A DNA stretch of 64,000 nt from Blastococcus sp. LR1. Its GTDB lineage: Bacteria > Actinomycetota > Actinomycetes > Mycobacteriales > Geodermatophilaceae. The notes under the pieces are model-generated. The model was given only the letters and a program-made list of their open reading frames with translations. It did no database searches and had not been told where the DNA came from. Shown in pieces: positions 2,226 to 41,947 of this stretch (position 1 is its first letter; the number at the start of each line of letters is the position of its first letter). A program made the position numbers and the translations under genes. The DNA lies in NCBI RefSeq assembly GCF_020166105.1, contig NZ_JAIUJY010000004.1, positions 1 through 64,000 of the forward strand, read 5' to 3'.

Positions 2226-3899
2226 TTGTCGCACGCCCGCACCGCTCCCGCTCTCGAGGGCCCCCGCCGCGGTCTCCCGCTGCTCGGCCGGCTGGGCGAC
2301 GTCCGCATCGGTCGCCGCCTCGGCCTGGCCTTCGGCACCGTCGGCTGCCTGGTCCTGGTCAGCACCGGCGCCGGCCTGATCGCGGTGGGCGAGCAGCGCG
2401 ACATCGCCACCGAGCTGAGCGACGTCGCCGGCGTGCTGCAGGAGGCCGAGACGGCGCGGTTCCAGATCGCCGACGTGAGTGGTTGGCAGGGCCTCGTCAT
2501 GGCCGACGTCGCCGCGTTCGGCCCCGCGGCGGGTCTCGCGCCCGACGCCTACAACCGCAACGGCATGATCGAGAGCAAGGCGGCCGTGTACGACTGGCTG
2601 GCCGAGGTCGACACCTCGGCCATGGATGCGGACGAGCGGGCCACCTGGAGCGAGCTCGAGCCGGCCTGGGACAAGTACTTCGCCATGGACGACCAGGTGG
2701 TCGCGTGGATCTCCGACGGCTCGCCCTCGGGCTTCCGCACCGCGGTGGAGAGCATCAACGGCGGGGAGGCGGGGGAGGGGTACGGACTCGTCCTCGACGT
2801 CGCCGATCGTGTCGAGGTCTCGGCCAGCGAGCGCGTCGAGCTCCTCACCGAGCGGCAGCGCGACGCGCAGAGCCGGGCCACGATCCTGCTGAGCGTCGTC
2901 GGCGGCCTGGCCGTCCTGTTCGCCGTCATCGCCTCGGTCGCCGCCGCCCGCTCGGTCGTGCGCCCGCTGCGCCGGGTCCAGGCCTCGCTCGACGCCGTCG
3001 CGCAGGGCGACCTGACCCGCCCGGCGGGCGTGCACTCCCGCGACGAGGTGGGTCAGATGGCCGCCGCGCTGACCACGGCGCAGGACAGCCTCCGCCGGCT
3101 GGTGAGCTCCGTCGTCGCCTCGGCCGACGCGGTCGCCGCGAGCTCGGAGGAGCTCTCGGCCTCGTCCGGTCAGATCTCGGCGTCCGCGGAGGAGACCTCG
3201 GCGCAGTCCGGCGTAGTCGCCGGTGCTGCCGAGGAGGTGTCGCGCAGCGTGCAGACGGTCGCCGCCGGTGCGGAGGAGATGGGGCTGTCGATCCGGGAGA
3301 TCTCCCAGAACGCCGCGGAGGCCAGCCAGGTGGCGGCGCGCGCGGTGACCGCGGCCGAGACGACGACGGTGACGGTGGCGAAACTGGGGGAGTCCTCGGC
3401 GGAGATCGGCAACGTCGTCAAGGTGATCACGAGCATCGCGGAGCAGACGAACCTGCTGGCGCTGAACGCCACCATCGAGGCCGCCCGGGCAGGCGAGGCC
3501 GGCAAGGGCTTCGCGGTCGTGGCCAACGAGGTCAAGGAGCTCGCGCAGGAGACGGCGAAGGCCACCGAGGACATCGCCCGCCGGGTCGAGGCGATCCAGA
3601 AGGACACCGGTGCCGCGGTCGGCGCGATCGAGGAGATCTCCGCGATCGTCGGCCAGATCTCCGACCGGCAGACCACCATCGCCTCCGCCGTGGAGGAGCA
3701 GACCGCCACCACCAGCGAGATGTCGCGCTCGGTCCAGGAGGCCGCGGGCGGCGCCGGTCAGATCGCCGACAACATCGGCAGCGTCTCGACGGCGGCCGAG
3801 TCGACCACCCAGGCGCTCGCCCAGACCCGCACCGCGGTGGACGAGCTGTCCCGCATGGCCGCGGACCTCCGCACCGAGGTCGGCCGCTTCACCTACTAG
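2226..3899 (+). CDS. Methyl-accepting chemotaxis protein (transducer 2)
   Basis: A 557-aa paralogue of the preceding receptor. It has TM1 near residues 28-50, a sensor region to about 215, TM2 near 220-240 ([20 protein letters not shown]), HAMP with a DLTRPAG signature, then the methyl-accepting domain with the same tip sequence as transducer 1. I place the start at TTG 2226 because AGGAG at 2214-2218 is exactly 7 nt upstream, the same spacing as in the first gene; an in-frame ATG at 2196 lacks a binding site. The stop codon touches a dispersed hairpin repeat (3899-3955). The sensor region differs from transducer 1; ligand unknown. Confidence 0.93.
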
Positions 3900-3955
3900 A
3901 AGGACCCCGTCCTCCTCACCCCTCGCAGGCTCGGGGCGAGCTTCGGGACGGGGCC
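3899..3955. repeat. Dispersed double-hairpin repeat, copy 1
   Basis: Starts GAAGGACCCC at the stop codon of transducer 2 and ends GGGGCC. The outer stem is CCCCGTCC with GGACGGGG. The inner stem is CTCACCCC with GGGGCGAG (one A-C mismatch) around TCGCAGGCTC. Other copies lie at 6972, 25765, 58705 and 59882. It could act as a terminator or processing signal, but it has no T-tract. Confidence 0.75.
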
Positions 3956-3987
3956 GAACGCCGATGGTCGGTTGCGGGCGATCGGCT

Positions 3988-3995
3988 GCCGATAA
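3988..3995 (+). promoter_or_regulatory. GCCGATAA octamer upstream of cheA
   Basis: GCCGATAA matches the -10 element known for FliA/WhiG-type sigma factors and lies 105 nt before cheA. The identical octamer recurs at 7056 and close variants at 168, 8219 and 8444, all within gaps of this cluster. No consistent -35 element was found, so the promoter role is tentative. Confidence 0.35.
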
Positions 3996-4100
3996 CAGCA
4001 CAGACGGCGCGGGCCGACGGGTTCACCTTGACCCCGCTGCACGCCCGCCGATGACACCCCCGGAGCCGATCGCGCTCCCGGAAGCAGAGAGAAGGCAGCA

Positions 4101-6515
4101 GTGGACGGTCTGGACGACATCGTCGAGGAATTCCTCGTCGAGAGCCACGAGAACCTCGACCAGCTGGACGCCGACCTGGTGGCTCTCGAGAAGGAGCCCA
4201 ACTCGCGCGAGCGCCTGTCGAGCATCTTCCGGACCATCCACACGATCAAGGGCACCAGCGGCTTCCTGGCCTTCAACCGGCTGGAGGAGGTCACGCACGT
4301 CGGCGAGAACATGCTCTCCCGGCTGCGCGACGGCGAGCTGGCGCTGACCCCGCACCGCACCAGCGTGCTGCTGCAGATGGTCGACGTCGTCCGCGCGCTG
4401 CTCACCACGATCGAGGCCAGCGGCGGGGAGGGCGGCGTGGACGTGTCCGCCGCCGTCTCCGCCATCAGCGCCGCGATGGAGAACGGCGACGGCCCGGCCG
4501 CCGAGGCGCCCGCCGCCGAAGCTCCTGCCGCGGCCCCCGTCGCCGAGGTGGCCGCCCCGGTCGCCGCCGCCGAGAAGGCCCCCGCCAAGAAGGCCCCCGC
4601 CAAGCGCGCCAGCCGCGCGAAGGCCGCCCCCGCCCCCGCCCCCGCCGCCCCCGTCGAGGAGCCGGTGGCGGCGCCGGCCGCGGAACTGCCCGCAGACCTA
4701 CCCGTAGAGCCGGCCCTGCCGGCCGTTGCCGAGGAGCACCCGGTGTCCGAGCCCGCCGTCGCCGACCACCCCGAGGGCGAGGTCGCCTCCCCCGACGCCG
4801 CAGCCGGCTCGGGCCGCCGCGCCGTCGCCGACAGCACGATCCGCGTCGACGTCGACCTGCTCGACGAGCTGATGCTGCTCGTCGGCGAGCTGGTGCTGAC
4901 CCGCAACCAGATCGTCCAGTACGTCGGCCGTTCCAACGACACCGACCTGCTGCGCGCCTCCCAGCGGCTGAACCTGATCGCCAGCGAGCTGCAGGAAGGC
5001 GTCATGAAGACGCGCATGCAGCCGATCGACCACATCTGGTCGAAGCTGCCGCGCGTCGTCCGGGACCTGGGCCTGCAGCTGAAGAAGTCGATCCGCCTGG
5101 AGATGGAGGGCCGGGAGACCGAGCTCGACAAGACCCTCCTCGAGGCGGTCAAGGACCCGTTGACCCACCTCGTCCGCAACGGTGTCGACCACGGCATCGA
5201 GTCGCCGGAGGAGCGCAAGGCCGCCGGGAAGCCGGCCGAGGGCGTGCTCACCCTGCGCGCCCGCCACGAGAGCGGCCAGGTCGTGGTCGAGGTCGCCGAC
5301 GACGGCGCGGGCATCGACCCGGTCAAGCTCGGTGCCAAGGCCGTGCAGCGCGGTCTGCTCACCCAGGACGCGCTCGGCCGCATGAGCCCGGCAGACATCC
5401 TGCAGCTGATCTTCCTGCCCGGCTTCTCGACGGCGGCCGCGGTCACCAACGTCTCCGGCCGCGGTGTCGGCATGGACGTCGTGAAGACCAACATCGAGTC
5501 GATCGGCGGCACGATCGAGGTCGAGTCGGACGCCGGCAAGGGCACCGTCTGCCGGCTGCGCATCCCGCTGACGCTGGCGATCGTCCCGGCGCTCACCGTC
5601 GAGTGCGCCACCGACCGCTACGCCATCCCGCAGATCAGCCTGCAGGAGCTGGTCAGCCTGGACGCCGAGAAGGCCGTCAACGCGGTCGAGGAGGTCGGTG
5701 GCGCGCAGGTCTACCGCCTCCGCGGCGAACTGCTCCCGCTGGTGCGGCTCACCGACGTCCTGGGCATCACCTCCGAGCGGCACGACGGCCACGTGGTCAT
5801 CGCCGTCCTCCGGTCCGAGGGCCGGCGCTTCGGCCTGGTGGTCGACCGCGTCATCAACACCGAGGAGATCGTCGTCAAGGCGGTCGGCGGGCAGCTGAAG
5901 TCCATCGGCCTCTACTCCGGCGCCACGGTGCTCGGCGACGGCACCGTGGCCCTCATCCTCGACGTCCAGGCCCTCGCCCGGCGCGCGCTGCGCACCGAGA
6001 GCCTCGACCGCCAGGAGTCCCGCGCGTCGGTCGGCCAGAGCACGGCGGCCGAGACGGAGCGCCAGCGCATGCTGCTGGCCTCCATCGGTGGCGGCCGCCG
6101 CGTCGCCATCCCGCTCGACACCGTCACCCGCCTCGAGCAGGTGCGCACCGACTCGGTGGAGAAGGTCGGCAACCGGGAGGTCGTGCAGTACCGCGGCGCG
6201 ATCCTGCCGATCGTCCGTCTCGACCGGCACCTGGGCGCCTACGGCGAGACCGACCACGAGGTCCTCGAGGTCATCGTCTACAGCGACCACGGCCGCAGCG
6301 TCGCCATCGTGGTCGAGGAGATCCTCGACATCGTCGACGGCGAGGCGGCCGTCCGCAGCGACATCGAGGACATGGGCCTGCTCGGCTCCGCCGTCCTCGG
6401 CGACAGGGTGACCGAGCTGCTCGACGTCCGCGCCGCCATCCTCGCCGCCGACCCGGCGTTCTACTCATCCCCCACGACGCCGGCCGGCGTCTCCGACTCC
6501 CTGCTGGAGGTCTGA
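4101..6515 (+). CDS. cheA: Chemotaxis histidine kinase CheA with two CheW domains
   Basis: An 804-aa cytoplasmic kinase that autophosphorylates and passes phosphate to CheY and CheB. The HPt domain (1-105) has its phospho-His at H47 (IHTIKGTSGF). A long Ala/Pro/Lys linker (about 130-240) stands where a P2 CheY-docking domain would be, and none is recognisable. The dimerisation domain (about 245-310) and HATPase follow, with the N box (LTHLVRNGVDHGIE), G1 (DDGAGID) and G2 (GRGVGMD). Two CheW-like regulatory domains lie at about 507-640 and 655-790, whereas classical CheA has one. Start GTG 4101 has AGAAGG just upstream. It ends one base before cheW. Confidence 0.96.
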   Translation: MDGLDDIVEEFLVESHENLDQLDADLVALEKEPNSRERLSSIFRTIHTIKGTSGFLAFNRLEEVTHVGENMLSRLRDGELALTPHRTSVLLQMVDVVRALLTTIEASGGEGGVDVSAAVSAISAAMENGDGPAAEAPAAEAPAAAPVAEVAAPVAAAEKAPAKKAPAKRASRAKAAPAPAPAAPVEEPVAAPAAELPADLPVEPALPAVAEEHPVSEPAVADHPEGEVASPDAAAGSGRRAVADSTIRVDVDLLDELMLLVGELVLTRNQIVQYVGRSNDTDLLRASQRLNLIASELQEGVMKTRMQPIDHIWSKLPRVVRDLGLQLKKSIRLEMEGRETELDKTLLEAVKDPLTHLVRNGVDHGIESPEERKAAGKPAEGVLTLRARHESGQVVVEVADDGAGIDPVKLGAKAVQRGLLTQDALGRMSPADILQLIFLPGFSTAAAVTNVSGRGVGMDVVKTNIESIGGTIEVESDAGKGTVCRLRIPLTLAIVPALTVECATDRYAIPQISLQELVSLDAEKAVNAVEEVGGAQVYRLRGELLPLVRLTDVLGITSERHDGHVVIAVLRSEGRRFGLVVDRVINTEEIVVKAVGGQLKSIGLYSGATVLGDGTVALILDVQALARRALRTESLDRQESRASVGQSTAAETERQRMLLASIGGGRRVAIPLDTVTRLEQVRTDSVEKVGNREVVQYRGAILPIVRLDRHLGAYGETDHEVLEVIVYSDHGRSVAIVVEEILDIVDGEAAVRSDIEDMGLLGSAVLGDRVTELLDVRAAILAADPAFYSSPTTPAGVSDSLLEV

Positions 6516-6516
6516 C

Positions 6517-6969
6517 ATGACCGCCCCCACCACCACCGCTGCTCCCGCCACCAGCGGGCAGCTGGCCACCTTCCGGCTCGACGGCGACCTGTACGGCGTG
6601 GAGGTGGAGCACGTGCAGGAGGTGCTCCGCAGCCAGCAGCTGACCCGGGTCCCGCTCGCGCCGACCGCCGTCGCCGGGCTGATCAACCTCCGCGGCCAGG
6701 TGGTGACCGCGATCGAGCTGCGCGAGCGGCTCGGCCGGCCGCCGCGCCCCGAGGGCACCGACGCCGTCGTCATCGTCGTGCGGCTGCACGGCGAGGCGGT
6801 CAGCCTCCTGGTGGACTCCATCGCCGATGTCGTCGACGTGGACGCCAACGACTTCGAGGCTCCGCCGGACACCCTCGAGGGCCAGGCCCGCGACCTGATC
6901 CGCGGGGCCTACAAGCTCGACGGGCAGCTGCTGCTCGCCCTGGACGTCCAGAAGGCCGTCAGCGCCTGA
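6517..6969 (+). CDS. cheW: Chemotaxis coupling protein CheW
   Basis: A 150-aa adaptor that links transducers to CheA. It is a single CheW domain: LATFRLDGDLYGVEVEHVQEV, RVPLAPTAVAGLINLRGQ and a C-terminal GAYKLDGQLLLALDV segment. It begins one base after the cheA stop, so the two are co-transcribed and probably translationally coupled. A copy of the dispersed double-hairpin repeat starts two bases after the stop codon. Confidence 0.95.
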   Translation: MTAPTTTAAPATSGQLATFRLDGDLYGVEVEHVQEVLRSQQLTRVPLAPTAVAGLINLRGQVVTAIELRERLGRPPRPEGTDAVVIVVRLHGEAVSLLVDSIADVVDVDANDFEAPPDTLEGQARDLIRGAYKLDGQLLLALDVQKAVSA

Positions 6970-8496: not shown

Positions 8497-9606
8497 GTGA
8501 ATCCGATCAAGGTGATGGTGGTCGACGACTCCGTCGTCGTCCGCAAGATCGTCACCGACGTGCTCTCCGAGGACCCTGGTATCGAGGTCGTGGGCACCGC
8601 CGTCAACGGCAAGGCCGCCGTGAGCAAGCTCGAGCTGCTCAAGCCCGACCTGATCACGATGGACATCGAGATGCCGGAGATGAACGGCATCGAGGCGGTG
8701 CGCGCCATCCGCGGCCTGCGCTCCCGCGTGCCCATCATCATGTTCAGCACGCTGACCGAGCGCGGTGCGACCGCCACCCTGGACGCGTTGTCCGCCGGCG
8801 CCAACGACTACGTCACGAAGCCGGCCAACGTCGGCAGCGTCGCCCAGTCGATGGAGAGCGTCCGCCAGCAGCTCATCCCCAAGATCAAGGCGCTCCTCGG
8901 TCGCCCGGTCGGGTACCAGCGGGGGGCTGCACCGCCGCCCCCGCCGCCCAAGCCGGCCGCACCGCGGACAGGGCCGGGCAAGAAGCCGGCCGTCCTGGTG
9001 ATCGGCTCCTCGACGGGTGGCCCCGAGGCCCTCGCCCGCGTCATCCCGGCCCTGCCGGCGAACCTGCCGGTGCCGATCCTGCTGGTCCAGCACATGCCGC
9101 CGGTCTTCACCCGGCAGTTCGCCCAGCGCCTCGACCGGCTGAGCGCGCTGCGCGTGGTCGAGGCCGTCGACGGGACCCCGCTGATGCCGGGCACCGTGCA
9201 CCTCGCCCCGGGCGACCACCACCTCGTGGTGCGCGCCAACGCCCGCGCGGCGCTCAGCACGTCGCTCAACCAGAACCCGCCGGAGAACTTCTGCCGGCCG
9301 GCGGTCGACCCGCTGTTCCGCTCCGCCGTGGCGGCCTACGACGGCGCCGTCCTCGGGGTCGTCCTGACGGGCATGGGCTCCGACGGGCGCAACGGCTGCG
9401 GCGAGATCCGCAACGCCGGCGGCACCGTCGTCGTGCAGGACCAGTCGACCTCCGTCGTCTGGGGCATGCCCGGCGCCGTCCAGCAGGCCGGCTACGCCGA
9501 CGAGGTCCTGCCGCTCGACCGGATCGCCGAGGCGATCCAGCGCCACCTCTCCGGTGCCGCAGTCCTCAACTCTGCAACAACCATGGCCGTGGGAGGTCGT
9601 CGATGA
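8497..9606 (+). CDS. cheB: Protein-glutamate methylesterase/glutaminase CheB
   Basis: A 369-aa response regulator that removes methyl groups from transducers when phosphorylated by CheA, giving adaptation. The receiver domain (1-125) has phospho-Asp D56 (TMDIEMPEM) and the TKPA lysine. A Pro-rich linker (about 140-160) leads to the CheB esterase domain with catalytic triad candidates S172 (GSSTGG), H199 (VQHMPP) and D296 (TGMGSDG). GTG start with AGGAGG 4 nt upstream. The stop overlaps the cheR start (ATGA), so the pair is coupled. Confidence 0.96.
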   Translation: MNPIKVMVVDDSVVVRKIVTDVLSEDPGIEVVGTAVNGKAAVSKLELLKPDLITMDIEMPEMNGIEAVRAIRGLRSRVPIIMFSTLTERGATATLDALSAGANDYVTKPANVGSVAQSMESVRQQLIPKIKALLGRPVGYQRGAAPPPPPPKPAAPRTGPGKKPAVLVIGSSTGGPEALARVIPALPANLPVPILLVQHMPPVFTRQFAQRLDRLSALRVVEAVDGTPLMPGTVHLAPGDHHLVVRANARAALSTSLNQNPPENFCRPAVDPLFRSAVAAYDGAVLGVVLTGMGSDGRNGCGEIRNAGGTVVVQDQSTSVVWGMPGAVQQAGYADEVLPLDRIAEAIQRHLSGAAVLNSATTMAVGGRR

Positions 9607-10427
9607 GCCTGACCGCGACCAGTTTCGACTGGGTCCGTGAACTCGTCCGCAAGGAGAGCGCCATCGTTCTCCAGCCGGGCAAGGAGTACCTGGTGGAGGC
9701 CCGCCTCCTGCCGATCGCCCGGCAGATGGGGCTGGCCGACGTCAGCAAGCTGGTGGAGACGGTGCGCGTGCGCCCCGACGCCGAGAACACCCGGCGGATC
9801 GTCGAGGCTCTCACCACCAACGAGACCTCGTGGTTCCGCGACGGTGACCCGTTCACCGCGCTGACCTCCACGGTGGTGCCGGCGCTGCTGGCGGCCCGCG
9901 GGCCGAACGAGCGCCTGCAGATCTGGTCGGCGGCCAGCTCCAGCGGCCAGGAGCCGTACACGATCGCGATGCTCCTCGACGACGCGCTGCCGAACGCGGC
10001 ATCCCGCGTCTCGATCACCGCGACCGATCTCTCCCGGGAGATGGTGCAGCGCACCAAGGCCGGGAAGTTCAGCCAGCTGGAGGTCAACCGCGGCCTGCCC
10101 GCCCCGATGCTCGTCCGCCACTTCCAGCGGGCCGGCACCGAGTGGGAGGTCTCCCCGACCCTGCGGCGCATGGTCACCGCCAGCGAGTGCAACCTCGCCG
10201 CGCCGCTGCCCCGGATGGGTCCGTTCGACGTGGTCTACCTGCGCAACGTGCTCATCTACTTCGACCTGCCCACGAAGCAGACGATCCTCCGCCGTGTGCG
10301 GGACCTGATGCGGCCTGACGGGTGGCTCTTCCTCGGCGCCGCCGAGACCACCCTCGGTGTCGACGACTCATGGGAGCGGGTCGTCATCGGCCGCAGCTCC
10401 GCCTACCGCCCACTGAAGGGGGCCTGA
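9603..10427 (+). CDS. cheR: Chemotaxis methyltransferase CheR
   Basis: A 274-aa SAM-dependent methyltransferase that methylates transducer glutamates. The N-terminal helical CheR domain (EALTTNETSWFRD) is followed by the methyltransferase fold with IWSAASSSGQEPYTIAM as SAM-binding motif and FDVVYLRNVLIYFD. ATG 9603 overlaps the cheB stop and has GGGAGG upstream. The open frame continues far upstream without a stop, but that part is antisense-like noise over cheB. No TPR or tether-binding extension is present, in keeping with transducers that lack a C-terminal pentapeptide. Confidence 0.95.
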   Translation: MSLTATSFDWVRELVRKESAIVLQPGKEYLVEARLLPIARQMGLADVSKLVETVRVRPDAENTRRIVEALTTNETSWFRDGDPFTALTSTVVPALLAARGPNERLQIWSAASSSGQEPYTIAMLLDDALPNAASRVSITATDLSREMVQRTKAGKFSQLEVNRGLPAPMLVRHFQRAGTEWEVSPTLRRMVTASECNLAAPLPRMGPFDVVYLRNVLIYFDLPTKQTILRRVRDLMRPDGWLFLGAAETTLGVDDSWERVVIGRSSAYRPLKGA

Positions 10428-10428
10428 C

Positions 10429-10812
10429 ATGCGTGCCTTGGTGATCGACGATTCGCGCGCCATGCGCCGGATCGTCACCGGCATTCTCACCAACCTCGGG
10501 TACGAGGTGCGGGATGCCGGTCACGGTCGGGAGGCGCTCGACGTCCTCGACGAGGGCTGGGTCCCCGACCTCGCCACGATCGACTGGAACATGCCGGTGA
10601 TGGACGGGCTGCAGTTCGTCTCCGCCGTCCGCTCCAACCCGGCCTGGCGCCGGATGACGATGATGATGGTGACCTCGGAGAGCGAGCACACCCAGATCGT
10701 CCGCGCGCTGGCCGCCGGCGCCCACGAGTACATGATCAAGCCGTTCACCGCCGACGCGTTCCGCGACAAGCTCGCCCTGCTCGGCCTGCTCCCGCAGGAG
10801 GTCGCCCTGTGA
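10429..10812 (+). CDS. cheY: CheY-type response regulator (first of two)
   Basis: A 127-aa single receiver domain. Acidic pocket DD at residues 7-8, phospho-Asp D52 (TIDWNMPVMDG), switch Thr in MMMVTSE and Lys in YMIKPF. It starts one base after cheR and its stop overlaps the GTG of the next gene, a CheX-like phosphatase candidate. It probably carries the signal to the flagellar motor or acts as a phosphate sink; which of the two CheY proteins binds the motor cannot be told here. Confidence 0.93.
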   Translation: MRALVIDDSRAMRRIVTGILTNLGYEVRDAGHGREALDVLDEGWVPDLATIDWNMPVMDGLQFVSAVRSNPAWRRMTMMMVTSESEHTQIVRALAAGAHEYMIKPFTADAFRDKLALLGLLPQEVAL

Positions 10813-11324
10813 GCACCACCGACACCGGCCAGCGCCGCCGCGGCAGCGACTCGCGTCCGGTCATCACCGACCTGATGGACGAGGACACCATTCTCGCCGT
10901 GGCCGGCGACGCCTGGATCTCCCTGGTCGGCGAGGACGAGGTCCTCGTGCCGATCCCGGGTGAGATGCCCGGCGACGTGCTGTCCAGCTGGGTCGACGTC
11001 GTCGGTCCGTGGACCGGCAGCGTCGTCCTGACGACCGGCCGGGCCACCGCCGAGGCCCTCTCCCGGGCGCTCCTGCGGGAGTCCGCTCCCGAGGTGCTCG
11101 ACGACGAGGACGTCGAGGACGCCTTCGGCGAGATCGCCAACGTCGTCGGCGGCAGCATCAAGGCCGCACTCCCGGGACCTTCGGGGCTGAGCCTGCCGCA
11201 GGTCGGTCACTCCCCGCTGGTGCGCAACCCCGCCGACGTGTGCCGCGTCGAGGTCCTCTGGCGCGGCGAGCCGCTCACCATCTCCGTGCAGGGCGCTCTG
11301 CCGCCCCTGCCCGTCACGCACTGA
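10809..11324 (+). CDS. CheX-like CheY-P phosphatase candidate
   Basis: A 171-aa soluble protein of the CheC/CheX type. The segment EDAFGEIANVVGGSIKAALP fits the phosphatase signature D/S-x3-E-x2-N followed by a Pro, as known for CheX and CheC. The C-terminal half (SLPQVGHSPL...VEVLWRGEPLTISVQG) looks like the beta part of that fold. GTG 10809 overlaps the preceding cheY stop (GTGA). It probably dephosphorylates CheY-P. The family call rests on the motif and position; activity is inferred. Confidence 0.75.
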   Translation: MSTTDTGQRRRGSDSRPVITDLMDEDTILAVAGDAWISLVGEDEVLVPIPGEMPGDVLSSWVDVVGPWTGSVVLTTGRATAEALSRALLRESAPEVLDDEDVEDAFGEIANVVGGSIKAALPGPSGLSLPQVGHSPLVRNPADVCRVEVLWRGEPLTISVQGALPPLPVTH

Positions 11325-36364: not shown

Positions 36365-38122
36365 TCAGCCGCGGGGGCGCAGCAGGTCGTGCTCGAGGAC
36401 GGCGGCCAGCGCGAGGGTCTTGTAGCCGACCTCGTCGAACAGCACCGTGATCCGGTCGTCCTCCACCCGCATCACGGCGCCGGCGCCCCATCCGGTGTGC
36501 TCGACGGCCGTCCCGACGGGGAACGGGGTGTCGAAGTCGGGTTCACCGGCGTTGTCGTGCGCCGTGCCGGCGGTGCAGTTGTCGCAGTTGCCGCACGGGG
36601 AGTCGAGCTGCTCGCCGAAGTAGCCGAGGAGGAACTGGCGCCGGCAGTCGGTGGTCTCGGCGTAGCCGCGCATCATCTCCACGCGGCTCTGGTCCACCTT
36701 CTCGTGGTGCTCGGCCAGCTGCCGGGCGCGTTCGGCGGCCTCGCCGGGGGGAGGGGCGCCCTCGGCCGGGAAGGCGGCGCCCTCCTCGTCCAGGACGACG
36801 GCGGCGACCTGCTCCAGGAGGTTGAGGTCGCGCGCCAGCGGGGTCGCGGCGCGGCCGGTCTCCTCGCGCAGGGCCGGCACGTCCACGCCGTCGTCGATCC
36901 CGGCGGCGGCCGCGGCCTGCACCAGGCCGGCGACCTGCTGGAGCTCCTCCTCGGCGGGGGTGCCGGCAGCGAAGAACCGGCGCAGCCCCAGGTCCTCCTG
37001 CCGGTACACGAGGACGGCGAGCGCGGGTTCGCCGTCCCGGCCCGCCCGGCCGATCTCCTGGTAGTAGCTGTCGACCGAGTCGGCCGGCTCGGCGTGGATC
37101 ACGAAGCGGGTGTCGGGCTTGTCGATGCCCATGCCGAACGCGGTGGTCGCGACGACGACGTCGAGCTCGTCGGCCATCCACGCGCGCTGGGTGTCCTCGC
37201 GCAGGGCCTTGTTCAGGCCGGCGTGGTAGTGCCGCGCGCGGAGGCCCCGGTCGGTCAGCTGCCCGGCGATGGTCTCCGTGCCCTTGCGGGTGGCGCTGTA
37301 GACGATGCCGGGCCCGCGCCCCTCGCCGATCTCGGCCAGGACGCGGTCGAGCACGCCCTGCTCCTTGCCGTGCGCGTCGGCGTAGTGGTCGACCTCCAGC
37401 CGGATCTCGGGGCGGTCGAAGCCGGCCACGACGACCTCCGCGTCGCGCATGCTCAGCAGCTCCACGATCTCGGCGCGGACCGGCGGCGCGGCGGTGGCGG
37501 TCAGCGCCAGGACCGTCGGGCGGCCGAGCTGGTCGATGACGCTGCCCAGGCGCAGGTAGTCGGGGCGGAAGTCGTGCCCCCACGCCGACACGCAGTGCGC
37601 CTCGTCGACGACGAACAGCGCCGGCTTGGCCTCGGCGATGGCCTCGACGACCTCGCCCTTGGTCAGCTGCTCGGGGGCGAGGAAGAGGAAGCGGACCGTT
37701 CCGTCACGCAGGCCGTCCAGCGCTTCCTGCTGGGCGCCGGCGGACAGCGTGGAGTTCAGCTGCGCGGCGCGGCCGGCGCGCTCCTCGAGTTCGGAGAGCC
37801 GGTCGACCTGGTCCCGCTGGAGGGCGATGAGCGGGGAGACGACGACCACCGGGCCGTCGAGGAGCTGCCCGGCGACCTGGTAGATCGCCGTCTTCCCGGC
37901 GCCGGAGGGGAGGACGGCCAGGGTGTCGCTCCCGCCGACGACGGCCTGCATCGCGCGTTCCTGCCCGGGGCGGAAGCCCTCGTAGCCGAGGACCTCGCGG
38001 GCGAACTCCCGGATGCGGCGGGTGCGGACCGAGGCGCTGTTCCCCGCGGGGTTGTCGTCGGACGCGGCAGGGGTGGTGGTGCGGGGCACCGGCTCCGGCT
38101 GCCCGGTCCCCGCGACCGGCAA
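36365..38122 (-). CDS. recQ: RecQ-like ATP-dependent DNA helicase
   Basis: A 585-aa superfamily 2 helicase. It has motif 0 YEGFRPGQERAM, Walker A LPSGAGKTAIYQ, DEAH box VVDEAHCVSAWGHDFRPDY, TATAAP and motif VI QEIGRAGRDG. A Cys cluster (CRRQFLLGYFGEQ...CGNCDNC) forms the RecQ zinc site, followed by a short domain (VEHTGWGAGAVMRVEDDRITVLFDEVGYKTL) in place of an HRDC domain. The N-terminal 30 residues are disordered and a downstream start (VRTRRIREF) is possible. It probably unwinds recombination or repair intermediates. Confidence 0.93.
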   Translation of the reverse strand: MPVAGTGQPEPVPRTTTPAASDDNPAGNSASVRTRRIREFAREVLGYEGFRPGQERAMQAVVGGSDTLAVLPSGAGKTAIYQVAGQLLDGPVVVVSPLIALQRDQVDRLSELEERAGRAAQLNSTLSAGAQQEALDGLRDGTVRFLFLAPEQLTKGEVVEAIAEAKPALFVVDEAHCVSAWGHDFRPDYLRLGSVIDQLGRPTVLALTATAAPPVRAEIVELLSMRDAEVVVAGFDRPEIRLEVDHYADAHGKEQGVLDRVLAEIGEGRGPGIVYSATRKGTETIAGQLTDRGLRARHYHAGLNKALREDTQRAWMADELDVVVATTAFGMGIDKPDTRFVIHAEPADSVDSYYQEIGRAGRDGEPALAVLVYRQEDLGLRRFFAAGTPAEEELQQVAGLVQAAAAAGIDDGVDVPALREETGRAATPLARDLNLLEQVAAVVLDEEGAAFPAEGAPPPGEAAERARQLAEHHEKVDQSRVEMMRGYAETTDCRRQFLLGYFGEQLDSPCGNCDNCTAGTAHDNAGEPDFDTPFPVGTAVEHTGWGAGAVMRVEDDRITVLFDEVGYKTLALAAVLEHDLLRPRG

Positions 38123-38229
38123 ACCGGGCCGCGGGCGAAGAGCTGCGCGCGCCCCTCCATCCCGTGGCGTGGATGACGGGGTGGCCGGGTCACCCCAGTC
38201 AAGGCCCCGGGTGGAGGCGCACGTACCAC

Positions 38230-38259
38230 TTGTTACGGATTGACTCCGTGCAGTAACTT
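38230..38259 (+). promoter_or_regulatory. Promoter candidate of the LuxR-type gene
   Basis: TTGTTA (38230-38235), an 18-nt spacer and TAACTT (38254-38259), with the ATG 12 nt further on. It lies in a locally AT-richer stretch between two divergent genes. Confidence 0.4.
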
Positions 38260-38271
38260 GGCCCGGCCTCG

Positions 38272-38637
38272 ATGGTGGCGGCCATGGTCGCCATCTGCCG
38301 AGCAGCCGGGGGAACCGACGGGATCGACTTCGGAGGTGGCTGGAGAGTGCCTTCGGGGGAGGTGTGCGGCCAGACCCAGCGGGCCTGCCGGTGGCGGTTC
38401 ACGGACTCGGAGTTGGAGATCCTGCGCCTGGTGGCAACCGGCATGACCGACGACGCCGTCGCCACCAGGCGAGGATCCAGCTCCCACACGGTGCGTCACC
38501 ACATGGCATCAGCGATGAGGCGAGCGGCAGCGTGCTCGCGCACCGAACTCGTTGCCAAGTGCTTTGCGGCGGGGGTCCTGACGTCCACCTGGCCGCCGGA
38601 CATCTCCGTGACCCACTGCCTGTGCAGTCTCGACTGA
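38272..38637 (+). CDS. LuxR-type helix-turn-helix protein
   Basis: A 121-aa protein whose middle (about 43-101) is a LuxR/GerE DNA-binding domain: FTDSELEILRLVATGMTDDAVATRRGSSSHTVRHHM with the recognition helix HTVRHHMASAMRR. There is no receiver, PAS or autoinducer domain; the N-terminal 42 residues show no known fold. ATG 38272 is assumed, ATG 38284 being possible. It lies 109 nt before the secreted-protein/ABC genes on the same strand and is the obvious candidate regulator for them. Codon use is less GC-biased than in the flanking genes, which suggests transfer. Confidence 0.75.
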   Translation: MVAAMVAICRAAGGTDGIDFGGGWRVPSGEVCGQTQRACRWRFTDSELEILRLVATGMTDDAVATRRGSSSHTVRHHMASAMRRAAACSRTELVAKCFAAGVLTSTWPPDISVTHCLCSLD

Positions 38638-38708
38638 ACCTGCCCGGCGGAATTGCCTAGTCGAAACCGGCGATGTGCGGGGGAGCGGAAAGCCACCACG
38701 ATCTCCCT

Positions 38709-38725
38709 GAACCGAACAACGGTTC
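38709..38725. promoter_or_regulatory. Inverted repeat in the leader of the secreted-protein gene
   Basis: GAACCG-AACAA-CGGTTC, a 6-bp-arm inverted repeat 21 nt before the start codon and just upstream of the GAGAGG ribosome binding site. It could be an operator, for instance for the adjacent LuxR-type protein, or an mRNA hairpin. Confidence 0.4.
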
Positions 38726-38746
38726 CCGACAGATCGAGAGGTAAAC

Positions 38747-39106
38747 ATGTCCAGTGCACGGAATGTCACAGCGGGAGCGGCGCTCTTCGCGGCGATGCTC
38801 TTGTCGGTTGCCCCGGCAACGGCCGCCATCGGCTTGATCTCGTACGAGGGGAGCGACTTCTCCCAGGACGTGAACACGTCGAGCGCTGTGCGGGCCTGCG
38901 ACGGCGAGAGCGACTCGCACGGCGTCCACGCGGACTTCACGACCAAGGGGTCGGGCGTCGTTCAGCAGATCCGGGACGGAAACGGGGCCAACAACAGCTG
39001 CGCGTACACCGGCAACTACGGCAACTACAACATCTATTCGCACCGGGCCGTCGAAGAGATCAATGCCGCCCCGGACAACTTCGGCCCTTGGAAGTACCCG
39101 TCCTGA
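38747..39106 (+). CDS. Small secreted protein of an ABC cassette
   Basis: A 119-aa precursor with a Sec-type signal peptide (ALFAAMLLSVAPATA, probable cut after ATA at residue 26) and a 93-aa mature part rich in Gly, Asn, Ser and Tyr. There are two Cys (C51 and C85), likely a disulfide, a TGNYGNYNIYSHR segment and the end FGPWKYPS. Not recognised. ATG 38747 has GAGAGG 7 nt upstream. Its stop overlaps the start of an ABC ATPase (TGATG), so the three genes are translationally coupled. The layout recalls lactococcin-972-type bacteriocin loci, but the sequence lacks that family's motifs. Bacteriocin-like, signal or self-protection roles are all open. Confidence 0.75.
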   Translation: MSSARNVTAGAALFAAMLLSVAPATAAIGLISYEGSDFSQDVNTSSAVRACDGESDSHGVHADFTTKGSGVVQQIRDGNGANNSCAYTGNYGNYNIYSHRAVEEINAAPDNFGPWKYPS

Positions 39107-39774
39107 TGCACCTCGGAGTTGATGTTCGGGAAGTGGTGGTAGAGGCCGGTGACCACCTGGTGCTGGCCTCTACCACCCTTTTCGCCGCTCCTGGGGAGGT
39201 CGTTGCCATCATGGGCCCCTCAGGATCAGGAAAGACGACCCTGCTGGCCTGCGTGGGCGGAACGGCGGTGCCGACGAGCGGCACGGTCGACGTCGACGGG
39301 ACGCGCGTCTCCGGCCTCGCCCCCGCTGCGCGCGCGCGATTCCGTCGTGAGCACGTCGGTCTGATCTTCCAGGATCCTGAGCTGCTGGACGAGCTGACGG
39401 TGGGCGAGAACGTGGCGCTGCAGCTGATCTTCTCCGGGGTGCCCCGATCCGAGGCGCGGAAGCAGGCGATGACAGCTCTGGATCGAGTCTCGCTGGCACA
39501 TCTGGTCGATTCGCCGATCCAGCACCTGTCCGGAGGAGAAGCTCAACGGGTCGCCGTGGCGCGCGCAACCGTGCGCCGGACTGCTGTGATCCTGGCTGAC
39601 GAGCCGACTGCATCGCTGGATGCGACCAATGCGCGCCTCGTCACCGACCTCCTCATCGACGCAGCCCGCGACCAGGGGTCCGCAGTGCTGCTGGCCACCC
39701 ATGACGCTGACGTCGCTGCCGCCTGCGACCGAGTGGTCTCCCTACGCGGAACGAGAGTCGACACGGTGCGATGA
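39106..39774 (+). CDS. ABC transporter ATP-binding protein (MacB/LolD type)
   Basis: A 222-aa ATPase subunit: Walker A MGPSGSGKTT, Q-loop FQDPELLDELTVGENV, signature LSGGEAQRVAVARA, Walker B VILADEPTASLD and H-loop ATHD. This is the MacB/LolD/FtsE subclass that works with FtsX-like permeases by mechanotransmission rather than classic transport. The start overlaps the stop of the secreted-protein gene, and the end overlaps the permease start. The open frame upstream of 39106 lies over the secreted-protein gene and is not coding. Confidence 0.93.
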   Translation: MHLGVDVREVVVEAGDHLVLASTTLFAAPGEVVAIMGPSGSGKTTLLACVGGTAVPTSGTVDVDGTRVSGLAPAARARFRREHVGLIFQDPELLDELTVGENVALQLIFSGVPRSEARKQAMTALDRVSLAHLVDSPIQHLSGGEAQRVAVARATVRRTAVILADEPTASLDATNARLVTDLLIDAARDQGSAVLLATHDADVAAACDRVVSLRGTRVDTVR

Positions 39775-41879
39775 GGTTGTTGCTACGCCTCGCTCTGCGC
39801 TTCGCGTTCTCCCGTGACCGGACTCAGCGATGGCGACAGGTCAGCGTCACCGTGTCCGCGCTGCTGGCCACTCTCGCCGTCCTGCTCGGCATCGGGGTCG
39901 TCGGTCTGGCTGCGGGAGCGGAGCAGCGCCGTGCGGACCGCATGCCCGTGCTGACCCGCGAGGAGCCGGCACCTGCTCCGTTGACGATGTCGCTGCGGGG
40001 AGAGATCTGGGCTGAGCGCCAGTTTCCCGTGCTCTGGCTCGACGTCGGCTCCGACCCCGACCCGTCGGTCCTCCCCCCCGGCCTGGAGCGGTTGCCCGAG
40101 CCGGGAACGGTGGTGGCATCCCCAGGGCTCGTGGAGTCCGGAGCCGTCGACGGGTTGGGTCTGGTCACCAGTCCCGTCGGCACCGGCCCCGACGGCACGA
40201 TCGGACCCGAAGGGTTGGCTGTCCCCTCGGAGTGGCTGGCGTACGCACGTCCGCCCGCCGGCCGTTCCCTGGGCACCGGCGGCGCGCTCATCTCCGTCGT
40301 CGGCTTCGGGCCTGGCCCGCACGACCCGACGATCACCTTCGAGACCGACCCTGCCGCGCCGTCTCTCGCCGCGGCGCTGTTCACCAGTGGATGGCTGTTC
40401 CTGCTTCCGGCCCTGGTGCTCGCCGCGAGTGCCGCCGCTGCGTTGTCGCCACTGCGGACCCGCCGACTCCACCTGCTGCACCGGTTCGGTCTGACCGGGG
40501 TCCAGCTACGGGCTCTCGCCGCCGTCGAGACCTCCGCACTGGCGGGTGTCGGTGTCCTCGGCGCCCTCGCCGGCTGGGTGCTCGTCGCTCCGCGGCTGTC
40601 GGATCTGCCGTTCTCGGGCATCGCCCTGCCACCAGGAGGGCTGGCGATCCCCCCGGCCCTGGTCGGCGGCGCCGCGGTCGGCGCGCTCGTCCTCTTCGCC
40701 GTGCTCGGCGCCCTGACCACCGGGGTGGGCAGGTCTTCCTCAGCACGGTCCAGCAGCCGCCGCCCGGCAGCGTCCGTCTCCGCGTGGAAGCTCACGCCAC
40801 TGGTCCTGGCAGGCCTGCTGCTGCTGCTCAGCCGTCTCCTCGGCGCCCAGTCCGGAGCTCCGCTGATCTGGGCGTCCCTCCTCGTCCTCCTCGCCGGCAT
40901 CCCCGTGGCCCTGCCGTGGCTCGTGCAGCGCTTCGGCAGCAGGCTCGCAGCCTCCCGGAACGCCCCTCGCTGGCTGGCCGGCCAGCGGCTGCGCTTCTCC
41001 CCGACAGCCCTTGCCCGGCCCGCCGTAGCCATCGCCGCGCTGGTCTTCGTCGCCGGCGCCCTCACCGGCATCCACCAGCGATTCACCGCCTCGGCCGCTC
41101 TCGAGGGCCCTCCCGGGACCATGTACCTGCTCGACTGGCGGGATTCGCGACCGGGCGACGCGGAGCTCGTCGCCGACCTTCTGGCTCCTGCGTCCGTCAT
41201 CCCGTTGCACCAGGCCGAGGGTGAGACCCCTCGGGCCTACCTGCCCACCTGCCAGGCCGTGCTCCCGGTCATCGGCGGACCTGCGGCGCGAGCGTGCGTC
41301 AACGGCGAACTCAGCGCCGGTGCCGCCCAGGCCTGGCAGGACGCCACGTCCAGCGTGCCGGTCCTCGGCGCCCCTCCCGAGCTCCCCGCCGGAAGCGTCC
41401 AGACCGTCCTCATCACCGGCGATCCCACACCGACCGACTCCGCTGTCTGGCGGGCCGTCAACCCGACCTTGTCAGCCGTCAACCTGAGCGTCCTCGGCGC
41501 TCAGGCCCTCGCCCCACCCCTTGCCCAGCAGTGGCTGCTCGCCGCCAGCTCCGTCGGGCTCCTCCTGCTGCTGCTGGCCTTCCTGCAGTCCTACGGCAAC
41601 CGGGTCCTCGCCGTCGTGGACGAGGATCGACGGCTCATCCGCGTAGCCCTCTCCGCCGGCGAGGTGCGGGCCGTCCAGCGCTGGACCCTCGCCGGCCCGC
41701 TGCTCATCGCCGCACCCACGGGGTTCGTGTGCGCGACCGTGTTCCTCGTCGCCGCCAACGACCTCGAACTCGCCGTGACCGCCACCGGTTGGGTCCTCGT
41801 CGAGACACTCGTCTGCGGGCTGACGAGTGCTCTCGTCGCCCTCGGTCTCGCTCGGCTCCAGCGCTCCTGGCTCAGCTAG
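39771..41879 (+). CDS. FtsX-like ABC transporter permease
   Basis: A 702-aa membrane protein, overlapping the ATPase stop by 4 nt (ATGA). It has an N-terminal helix (VTVSALLATLAVLLGIGVVGLAAG), an extracytoplasmic domain (about 55-200), a first bundle of membrane helices (about 205-320), a central pair (about 345-385), another helix near 418-440, a second extracytoplasmic domain with two Cys (LPTCQAV...ARACVNG, about 455-580) and three C-terminal helices (585-695). This duplicated layout resembles the large membrane proteins associated with bacteriocin or antimicrobial-peptide ABC systems. It probably exports or expels a peptide or lipid at the membrane, plausibly tied to the secreted protein. 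Confidence 0.88.
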   Translation: MRLLLRLALRFAFSRDRTQRWRQVSVTVSALLATLAVLLGIGVVGLAAGAEQRRADRMPVLTREEPAPAPLTMSLRGEIWAERQFPVLWLDVGSDPDPSVLPPGLERLPEPGTVVASPGLVESGAVDGLGLVTSPVGTGPDGTIGPEGLAVPSEWLAYARPPAGRSLGTGGALISVVGFGPGPHDPTITFETDPAAPSLAAALFTSGWLFLLPALVLAASAAAALSPLRTRRLHLLHRFGLTGVQLRALAAVETSALAGVGVLGALAGWVLVAPRLSDLPFSGIALPPGGLAIPPALVGGAAVGALVLFAVLGALTTGVGRSSSARSSSRRPAASVSAWKLTPLVLAGLLLLLSRLLGAQSGAPLIWASLLVLLAGIPVALPWLVQRFGSRLAASRNAPRWLAGQRLRFSPTALARPAVAIAALVFVAGALTGIHQRFTASAALEGPPGTMYLLDWRDSRPGDAELVADLLAPASVIPLHQAEGETPRAYLPTCQAVLPVIGGPAARACVNGELSAGAAQAWQDATSSVPVLGAPPELPAGSVQTVLITGDPTPTDSAVWRAVNPTLSAVNLSVLGAQALAPPLAQQWLLAASSVGLLLLLLAFLQSYGNRVLAVVDEDRRLIRVALSAGEVRAVQRWTLAGPLLIAAPTGFVCATVFLVAANDLELAVTATGWVLVETLVCGLTSALVALGLARLQRSWLS

Positions 41880-41934
41880 GCCGCTGCCCGGAGGGGCGAG
41901 GAGCCGGGGTTTGCCGTCTCCGCAGACGCGGATC

Positions 41935-41940
41935 TAGGGT
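41935..41940 (+). promoter_or_regulatory. -10-like hexamer of the molybdate gene block
   Basis: TAGGGT, 7 nt before the GTG start at 41948; leaderless-type promoter heading the HTH-TOBE/modABC block. Confidence 0.5.
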
Positions 41941-41947
41941 GCGGTCC

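Follow-up and report, generated by a model that had tools for sequence, protein, structure and literature searches.

A small secreted protein family recurs beside one FtsX-like branch of actinobacterial ABC transporters

What might a small secreted protein do when its gene overlaps that of an ATP-binding cassette (ABC) ATPase, which in turn overlaps the gene for a large membrane protein? This question is raised by a compact cassette in a 64,000-nucleotide (nt) stretch of Blastococcus sp. LR1 (genome G000, contig NZ_JAIUJY010000004.1), the whole of which we refer to as the window. The cassette encodes a regulator, a secreted protein of a family to which we give the working name SP1, an ATPase and a permease; the permease branch comprising the window permease and its SP1-linked relatives is referred to as the S subfamily. 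We found SP1 directly upstream of an ATPase and a permease at 14 loci in two classes (the window included, one locus broken), and this SP1-ABC module is real and conserved, occurring in at least four families besides that of the window. The four genes of the window, as read from the sequence, lie on the same strand and span 38272-41879:

38272..38637, plus strand: LuxR-type helix-turn-helix (HTH) protein, an open reading frame (ORF) of 121 amino acids (aa) without a sensor or receiver domain, accessory (PF00196; ratio of nonsynonymous to synonymous substitution, dN/dS, 0.22)
38398..38553, plus strand: GerE/LuxR HTH domain of this protein, residues 43-94 (Pfam PF00196)
38747..39106, plus strand: SP1, 119 aa, acidic, with a signal peptide at about residues 1-26 and a mature part of about 93 aa (sequence reading and simple hydropathy)
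38897..38899, plus strand: codon of Cys51, first half of Cys pair A (SP1 family alignment)
38999..39001, plus strand: codon of Cys85, second half of Cys pair A (SP1 family alignment)
39106..39774, plus strand: ABC ATPase, 222 aa (PF00005, E 3.9e-33)
39771..41879, plus strand: S-subfamily FtsX-like permease, 702 aa (hydropathy, tree clade and subfamily hidden Markov model)

The first-pass annotation, made from the sequence alone, had placed the start of the cassette at 38230; the LuxR-type ORF begins at 38272. It had also described SP1, ATPase and permease genes that overlap by 1 and 4 nt, and reading of the sequence confirmed this: the SP1 stop codon (TGA, 39104-39106) shares 1 nt with the ATPase ATG at 39106, and the ATPase stop codon (39772-39774) shares 4 nt with the permease ATG at 39771. 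Its statement that codon choice is less GC-biased in the cassette was likewise borne out, as the GC content of third codon positions (GC3) is 0.75-0.88 there (LuxR 0.84, SP1 0.88, ATPase 0.75, permease 0.86) versus 0.92-0.98 in three flanking genes (recQ 0.98, carbamoyltransferase 0.95, modA-like 0.92). Compared with Blastococcus sp. TF02-8, dN/dS is 0.16 for SP1, 0.19 for the ATPase, 0.28 for the permease and 0.22 for the core of the LuxR-type protein, of which only about 82 residues (28-109) align, with recQ at 0.18 as the yardstick. The cassette values indicate purifying selection and therefore real genes.

SP1, the ATPase and the permease constitute the conserved core, and the LuxR gene lies outside it. 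As had been noted at first pass, an LuxR-type HTH protein without a sensor domain precedes the core: GerE (PF00196, E 1.8e-7, 31.1 bits against a cut-off of 23.5) is its sole Pfam domain above cut-off. When the window and the 13 other loci were searched with tblastn (queries from the window and L084, E 0.01, 2.5-6.4 kb upstream of the ATPase), an LuxR-type gene was found near the cassette only in the window, in TF02-8 (L087) and in G402 (L084), where it encodes a response regulator with a receiver (PF00072 plus PF00196); no similar gene was found in the 2.5-4.8 kb searched at the other 11. With such a gene near three of 14 cassettes, we consider it accessory, which shifts the emphasis of the earlier description.

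The 14 loci are the window, L087 (TF02-8), L084 (G402, from another class of the phylum), L085 (G432), L105 (Sediminihabitans luteus DSM 25478), L143 (G933), L144 (G1010), L145 (G1047), L146 (G1061, broken), four in genus g78 (L151 in G816, L165 in G620, L172 in G970 and L173 in G886) and L176 (G1007, family f103), and they are spread over families f1, f20, f32, f18, f103 and that of Sediminihabitans. The window, L087, L084 and L085 were found via SP1 and the other ten via the permease. All five loci taken from among the closest permease matches (L105, L143, L144, L145 and L146) have SP1, broken in L146. Lower-scoring permeases were surveyed at 64 hand-picked rather than randomly drawn loci (16+8+40), using signal-peptide ORFs with hand-set thresholds and irrespective of homology. 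Upstream of the pair this survey found SP1 at 5 loci, another small secreted protein at 2, a PadR-type gene at 39 and none of these at 18; it under-counts SP1, because the known SP1 of L085 and L105 was missed. L165, L172, L173 and L176 were first noticed in this ORF survey, and L151 by similarity.

Homology between the two sets of secreted proteins was detected in both directions. With a hidden Markov model (HMM) built from the window group alone, the SP1 of L151, L165, L172, L173 and L176 had E values between 1e-14 and 3e-6, the lowest among 2000 shuffled decoys being 0.03; with the reverse HMM, the window-group SP1 ranged from 8e-17 to 2e-8, compared with 0.045 for the top decoy. A search of 249 genomes of the order gave SP1 matches in 82 at E<=1; places with E<1e-3 numbered only 14, including one within a 585-aa frame. 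A 13-member profile (A1) placed SP1 in 15 of 396 phylum genomes, at 23 places (E<=0.001), a count that is incomplete because the L165 SP1 of G620 was not reported. Seen from these 23 places, a window-like ATPase and permease lie within 1.5 kb at three (L061, which is the window, L062 and L067), and at L063 the end of the contig cuts the neighborhood. The earlier proposal of a secreted-peptide system is supported in part: the cassette is conserved at 14 loci, and many SP1 members are not beside an ABC pair. The outcomes that the first-pass annotation had named as contrary to its proposal were not what we found, since SP1 homologues do adjoin the ABC pair, SP1 has no housekeeping match and GC3 differs from that of the flanks.

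No model in the searched libraries matches SP1 or the window permease. Window SP1 has no Pfam match at E<=1, a single NCBIfam match (E 0.07) far under cut-off and no match to a PHROGs family; no relative was found in viral contigs (two scans), nor any plasmid match at E<=0.1. Searched against the PDB, a profile of 6 SP1 members gave no match and one of 13 gave five weak matches (best E 0.66). Three 'SAKe' PDB entries found by phmmer (best whole-sequence E 8.6e-9) were set aside as summed repeat matches, because no single stretch reaches even E 10. In the literature, no paper describing the pairing was found by title or abstract start, with subscription papers and preprints thinly covered.

An alignment of 22 SP1 members, 20 of them counted after the near-copies L087 and L145 were dropped, has conserved positions D52 (19/20), G80 (20/20), D56 (15/20) and W115 (17/20, Y in the other three), as well as cysteines that fall into two pairs, 51/85 and 102/112. 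Window SP1 carries D52, G80, W115 and pair 51/85; its earlier description as a two-Cys protein is right for the window and too narrow for the family, which has up to two pairs. Only 51/85 is present in the window, L105 and L143, only 102/112 in L173 and L176, and both pairs are present in L084, L151 and L172 (one Cys slightly shifted in L151 and L172, taken as alignment noise) and in nine members that are not ABC-linked. Exceptions are L165 (no Cys), L144 (pair moved to 55/81) and L085 (a single Cys). That cysteines were in most cases lost as pairs argues for a family with two predicted disulfides. At least one pair is absent or moved in 8 of 11 ABC-linked members compared to 0 of 9 others (Fisher p 0.0014, uncorrected for relatedness). 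The D52-x-E54-x-D56 motif is a candidate DxDxDG-like calcium loop. Structure predictions from three-row alignments had a mean predicted local distance difference test (pLDDT) score of 32.9 for mature SP1 and 37.0 for the permease, values too low for folds to be compared.

The window ATPase carries Walker A (GPSGSGKT), signature (LSGGE) and Walker B (ILADEP) motifs and, judged by its sequence, belongs to the MacB/LolD/FtsE group. Its top NCBIfam models are TIGR03608, LolD, FtsE, DevA and MacB (E 2e-53 to 4e-46), all sub-cut-off, with TIGR03608 the best at 181 bits against 254.85. LolD is the best NCBIfam model for the L084 and L105 ATPases (208 and 171 bits, cut-off 307.75). Neither Pfam nor NCBIfam gives a match to the window permease at E<=1; we label it FtsX-like because the L105 permease, which is 38% identical to it, has a sub-threshold FtsX match (E 0.015, 15.7 bits, cut-off 25.5), and because of homology to PadR-linked permeases of the same architecture. 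A simple hydropathy count for the family gives S permeases about 10-13 membrane segments, and two large extracytoplasmic stretches were recognized by eye in the window permease (residues ~50-205 and ~440-585). PADLOC matches of the ATPase and of the LuxR protein were discarded as generic ATPase and HTH similarity.

Among 71 permeases placed in a tree, one branch, with Shimodaira-Hasegawa-like approximate likelihood ratio test (SH-aLRT) support of 98.5, sets apart the 14 rows linked to SP1 plus L093 and L150. The SP1-linked label requires 3 changes on this tree, compared to a shuffled mean of 13.0 (0 of 500 shuffles as low); the tree is a quick one with several long branches, and two near-copy pairs favor such clustering. 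In leave-one-out HMM comparisons the S rows score 276-375 bits with the S model versus 55-132 with the PadR-linked model. For three further rows, too, the S model gives the highest score: 313 bits for L093, 209 for L150 and, by a narrow margin, 130 vs 119 for L200. Upstream of the L093 pair is a gene whose 267-aa product starts like a lipoprotein and matches nothing in Pfam; the gene upstream of the L150 pair is LacI-type. Distances between SP1 proteins correlate with those between permeases (Mantel r 0.50-0.51, p 0.0002-0.0004, 11 loci), while the correlation with ATPase distances at the same number of loci is not significant (r 0.22, p 0.07). After control for the membrane region, co-evolution between SP1 and the outer domains of the permease in particular was not supported (partial r 0.185 and 0.195, p 0.12 and 0.09).

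The association proved to be one-sided. A permease-profile search covered 19 genomes chosen for carrying SP1 homologues, including weak ones with E as high as 0.004; permease matches occurred in 15 genomes, at 32 places, 30 of which were examined as loci. Of the genomes, G648 is 77% complete, and in G434 one locus is situated at the end of a contig. The 30 loci comprise one S type (L226 in G620, which is the SP1-linked L165 locus itself), 26 PadR-like permeases and 3 of the L149/L163/L197 type. S permeases are thus nearly always accompanied by SP1 (14 of 16 branch rows), and SP1 often occurs without an S permease.

The spacing of the genes also differs between loci. The ATPase-permease overlap is 4 nt at most loci. 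SP1 and ATPase genes overlap by 1, 4 or 19 nt at six (window, TF02-8, L105, L143, L144 and L145; the 19-nt value depends on the start codon chosen) and are separated by 20 nt at L151, by 49 nt at L085 and by 83-126 nt, with hairpins, at L084, L165, L172, L173 and L176. Relative to 100 approximate dinucleotide shuffles each, with L146 left out, hairpin z is -6.5 at L165, -6.3 at L084 and -4.3 at L176, and weaker at L172 (-2.2) and L173 (-1.9). Between the SP1 and ATPase genes of L084 (G402, 4601-4717) lies a perfect 17-bp hairpin without a T run. Such arrangements suggest that the hairpin loci may make more SP1 than transporter, and the overlaps suggest the opposite for the window's group.

How, then, might the module work? 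The reading we place first, which we regard as quite possible though at slightly less than an even chance, is that SP1 is a secreted antagonist and that the ATPase and permease form a self-protecting type VII ABC transporter. SP1 would be exported by the Sec pathway, would fold outside the cell with up to two disulfides and would act on the cell envelope of rival actinobacteria, probably related ones. The ATPase and permease, as a type VII (mechanotransmission) machine, would strip SP1 from the membrane or from its target and so protect the producer, a removal step of the kind proposed for lactococcin 972 orf2-orf3 (PMC4055356) and for BceAB-type transporters (PMC5985334). Coupling of transporter translation to SP1 translation would secure protection, a hairpin after the SP1 stop codon would allow SP1 excess at the gapped loci, and the window's LuxR-type protein may set the timing. 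Counted in favor of this reading are the upstream SP1 at 14 loci, the overlaps, the S branch, the co-divergence with the permease and the hairpins. Also counted for it is the decaying cassette of G1061 (L146, 5507-7800 minus), in which transposase genes (Pfam) split the ATPase, SP1 is spread over two frames and the permease is open; with ATPase and SP1 both broken, both parts were lost together. Four tandem SP1-type genes in G421 (G421:C1:5363529-5365098 minus, L155), a genome with a fifth elsewhere, are likewise counted in favor. If SP1 is a toxin with its protection, the cassette represents a new protein antibiotic family with a resistance gene attached.

Several observations weigh against a secreted antagonist. 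The strongest is that G620 alone has an S-type permease among the 19 SP1-homologue genomes (30 of 32 places examined); SP1 proteins elsewhere do without the S transporter, and a toxin therefore fits badly. Window SP1 is acidic (pI 4.6, charge -6), its dN/dS of 0.16 shows no arms-race signature, the 1-nt overlap implies near-equal amounts rather than SP1 excess, and no hairpin was found in the 49-nt gap of L085 (z +1.0).

The near-constant presence of SP1 beside S permeases is common to this reading and to another, by analogy, in which the transporter has SP1 as its soluble extracytoplasmic partner (carrier, ligand-binding or regulatory), which would dock on the outer domains of the permease. 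We consider this somewhat unlikely, though it is the main rival. LolA, MacA and EnvC would be its analogues in other type VII systems, and the machine would handle a lipid, a lipoprotein, a wall enzyme or a foreign peptide. A partner would account for SP1 at 14 of 16 S-branch rows, whereas SP1 also occurs without S permeases, as well as for the translational coupling to the ATPase, the co-divergence with the permease and the conserved D52/G80/W115 core. LolD as the best, if far sub-cut-off, model of two ATPases points the same way, and SP1 excess, if that is what the hairpins mean, would also suit a binding protein. Set against these are the failure of SP1 to track the outer domains once the membrane region is controlled for, the separate role needed by SP1 homologues in genomes without S permeases, and the lack of a visible lipid anchor or second membrane segment in SP1. 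If correct, this reading shows what some uncharacterized FtsX-like transporters of monoderms work with.

A broader and rather doubtful generalization is that the S subfamily exemplifies an actinobacterial class of type VII ABC transporters with a small disulfide-bonded partner in the wall space, in which the transporter needs SP1 and not vice versa, other permease clades having recruited other proteins (L149/L197; the lactococcin-972-type). Were it true, a secreted protein plus a type VII ABC transporter would be a general design in monoderm bacteria. Either way, a testable pairing links an unnamed secreted family to one FtsX-like ABC branch in actinobacteria, the source of many antibiotics.

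Improbable, in our view, is that SP1 is an extracellular signal, with the ABC pair as its sensor and the LuxR-type protein as the read-out, as in BceAB-like flux sensing or a pheromone system. The LuxR-type gene lies directly upstream in the window and TF02-8, a receiver-plus-LuxR regulator lies upstream in G402, and BceAB-type transporters act in antibiotic sensing together with a two-component system (PMC5985334); against this, no similar gene was found in the 2.5-4.8 kb searched at 11 other cassettes, and the LuxR-type protein of the window lacks both a sensor and a receiver domain. More improbable still is that SP1 does ordinary work outside the cell, for example as a protease inhibitor or in binding the wall, and that the ABC pair merely exports or releases it: signal-peptide members do occur away from any such pair, but a protein with a Sec-type signal peptide needs no dedicated exporter, and type VII permeases are not known to export proteins in monoderms.

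Lactococcin 972 had been brought in at first pass as a comparison. Its cluster comprises, besides the structural gene, orf2-orf3, which encode a putative ABC transporter for immunity (PMC4055356). The window resembles it in having a signal-peptide protein of about 90-100 aa beside an ~700-aa multi-span protein and a MacB-type ATPase, with TIGR03608 (181 bits) as the best NCBIfam model of the ATPase. However, membership was rejected on family models, profile comparison and gene order. Window SP1 has no PF09683 or TIGR01653 match at E<=1, and SP1 has profile-profile (HH) probabilities of 0.08-0.16% to three actinobacterial Lcn972-type proteins, in agreement with the earlier remark that the mature protein lacks that family's motifs; the permeases of the window, L105 and L084 have no TIGR01654 match at E<=1, and the HH probability of S permeases to two Lcn972-type permeases is 0.1%. 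The gene order is bacteriocin-permease-ATPase at the Lcn972-type locus L223 and SP1-ATPase-permease in the window. The L223 control passes TIGR01653 (37.1 vs 32.1 bits) and falls below cut-off for TIGR01654 (45.6 vs 189.35); its ATPase is also under the TIGR03608 cut-off (223 vs 254.85 bits), so that a shortfall in that model alone is a weak argument. On present evidence we reject membership, although distant kinship may exist, as the Lcn972 profiles comprise only three and two sequences; the lead was apt as an analogy, and a likeness in working is possible. Among the 197 genomes of the class, PF09683 was matched in 4 at E<=0.01 (3 above cut-off), G432 among them and G000 not. G432 contains both an SP1 cassette (L085) and a PF09683 match (G432:C5:28170-28367) amid transposase-like genes.

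Closer relatives of the transporter are the PadR-linked actinobacterial pairs (permease ~720-800 aa), whose ATPase and permease are homologous to those of the cassette and likewise ordered, usually overlapping by 4 nt, with an HH probability of 99.8% to S permeases; they differ in that a PadR-type gene replaces the secreted protein (39 of 64 lower-scoring loci; PadR-type calls by motif, one example confirmed as PF03551) and in occupying a separate part of the tree. The type VII systems BceAB, YknXYZ, LolCDE and FtsEX share a separate ATPase and FtsX-like permease and work with or against extracytoplasmic molecules (PMC5985334); YknXYZ acts against SDP, and BceAB is a similar precedent (same source). 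Unlike them, the window operon has no MacA-like adaptor gene and its permease matches no curated model. Another small secreted protein adjoins such a permease at 2 of the 64 surveyed loci, L149 (G929, 5956-6447 minus) and L197 (G320), which have a small signal-peptide protein (163 and 142 aa) directly upstream of the ATPase and permease; these lack profile similarity to SP1 (HH probability 3.0 and 8.8%) and their permeases lie elsewhere in the tree. L163 has the same permease type, and no such secreted protein was found in the stretch examined. L144 (G1010) has two ATPase-permease pairs nearby (3629-6797 and about 9190-11001), the second with an SP1-like frame upstream that is interrupted early by a stop codon (either the gene is broken or it uses a different start).

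Finally, the window cassette occupies a slot between two genes:

36365-38122, minus strand: recQ, with a carbamoyltransferase gene behind it (Pfam)
from 41948: HTH-TOBE regulator, followed by a gene for a modA-like binding protein (Pfam)

The TF02-8 cassette lies at the same place (identity 92% for SP1, 91-92% for the ATPase and 89% for the permease), and the cassette is therefore older than the split of the two species. SP1 was found in 2 of 11 genus genomes, with a further G158 match at E 0.6 left uncounted. recQ is present in all 23 genus genomes, and of 15 recQ loci examined, 2 have the cassette and 13 have no cassette match in the 1.5 kb beside recQ. This patchiness is consistent with an insertion, older than the split of the two species, into a slot of variable content. 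Horizontal acquisition, as claimed earlier, is a possible origin of this patchy cassette of lower GC3, and any such transfer would predate the split from TF02-8. The gene content of the slot (window 38123-41947; loci L205-L217) varies between genus genomes, and in L207 and L213 the HTH-TOBE regulator is about 1.4 kb away from recQ.

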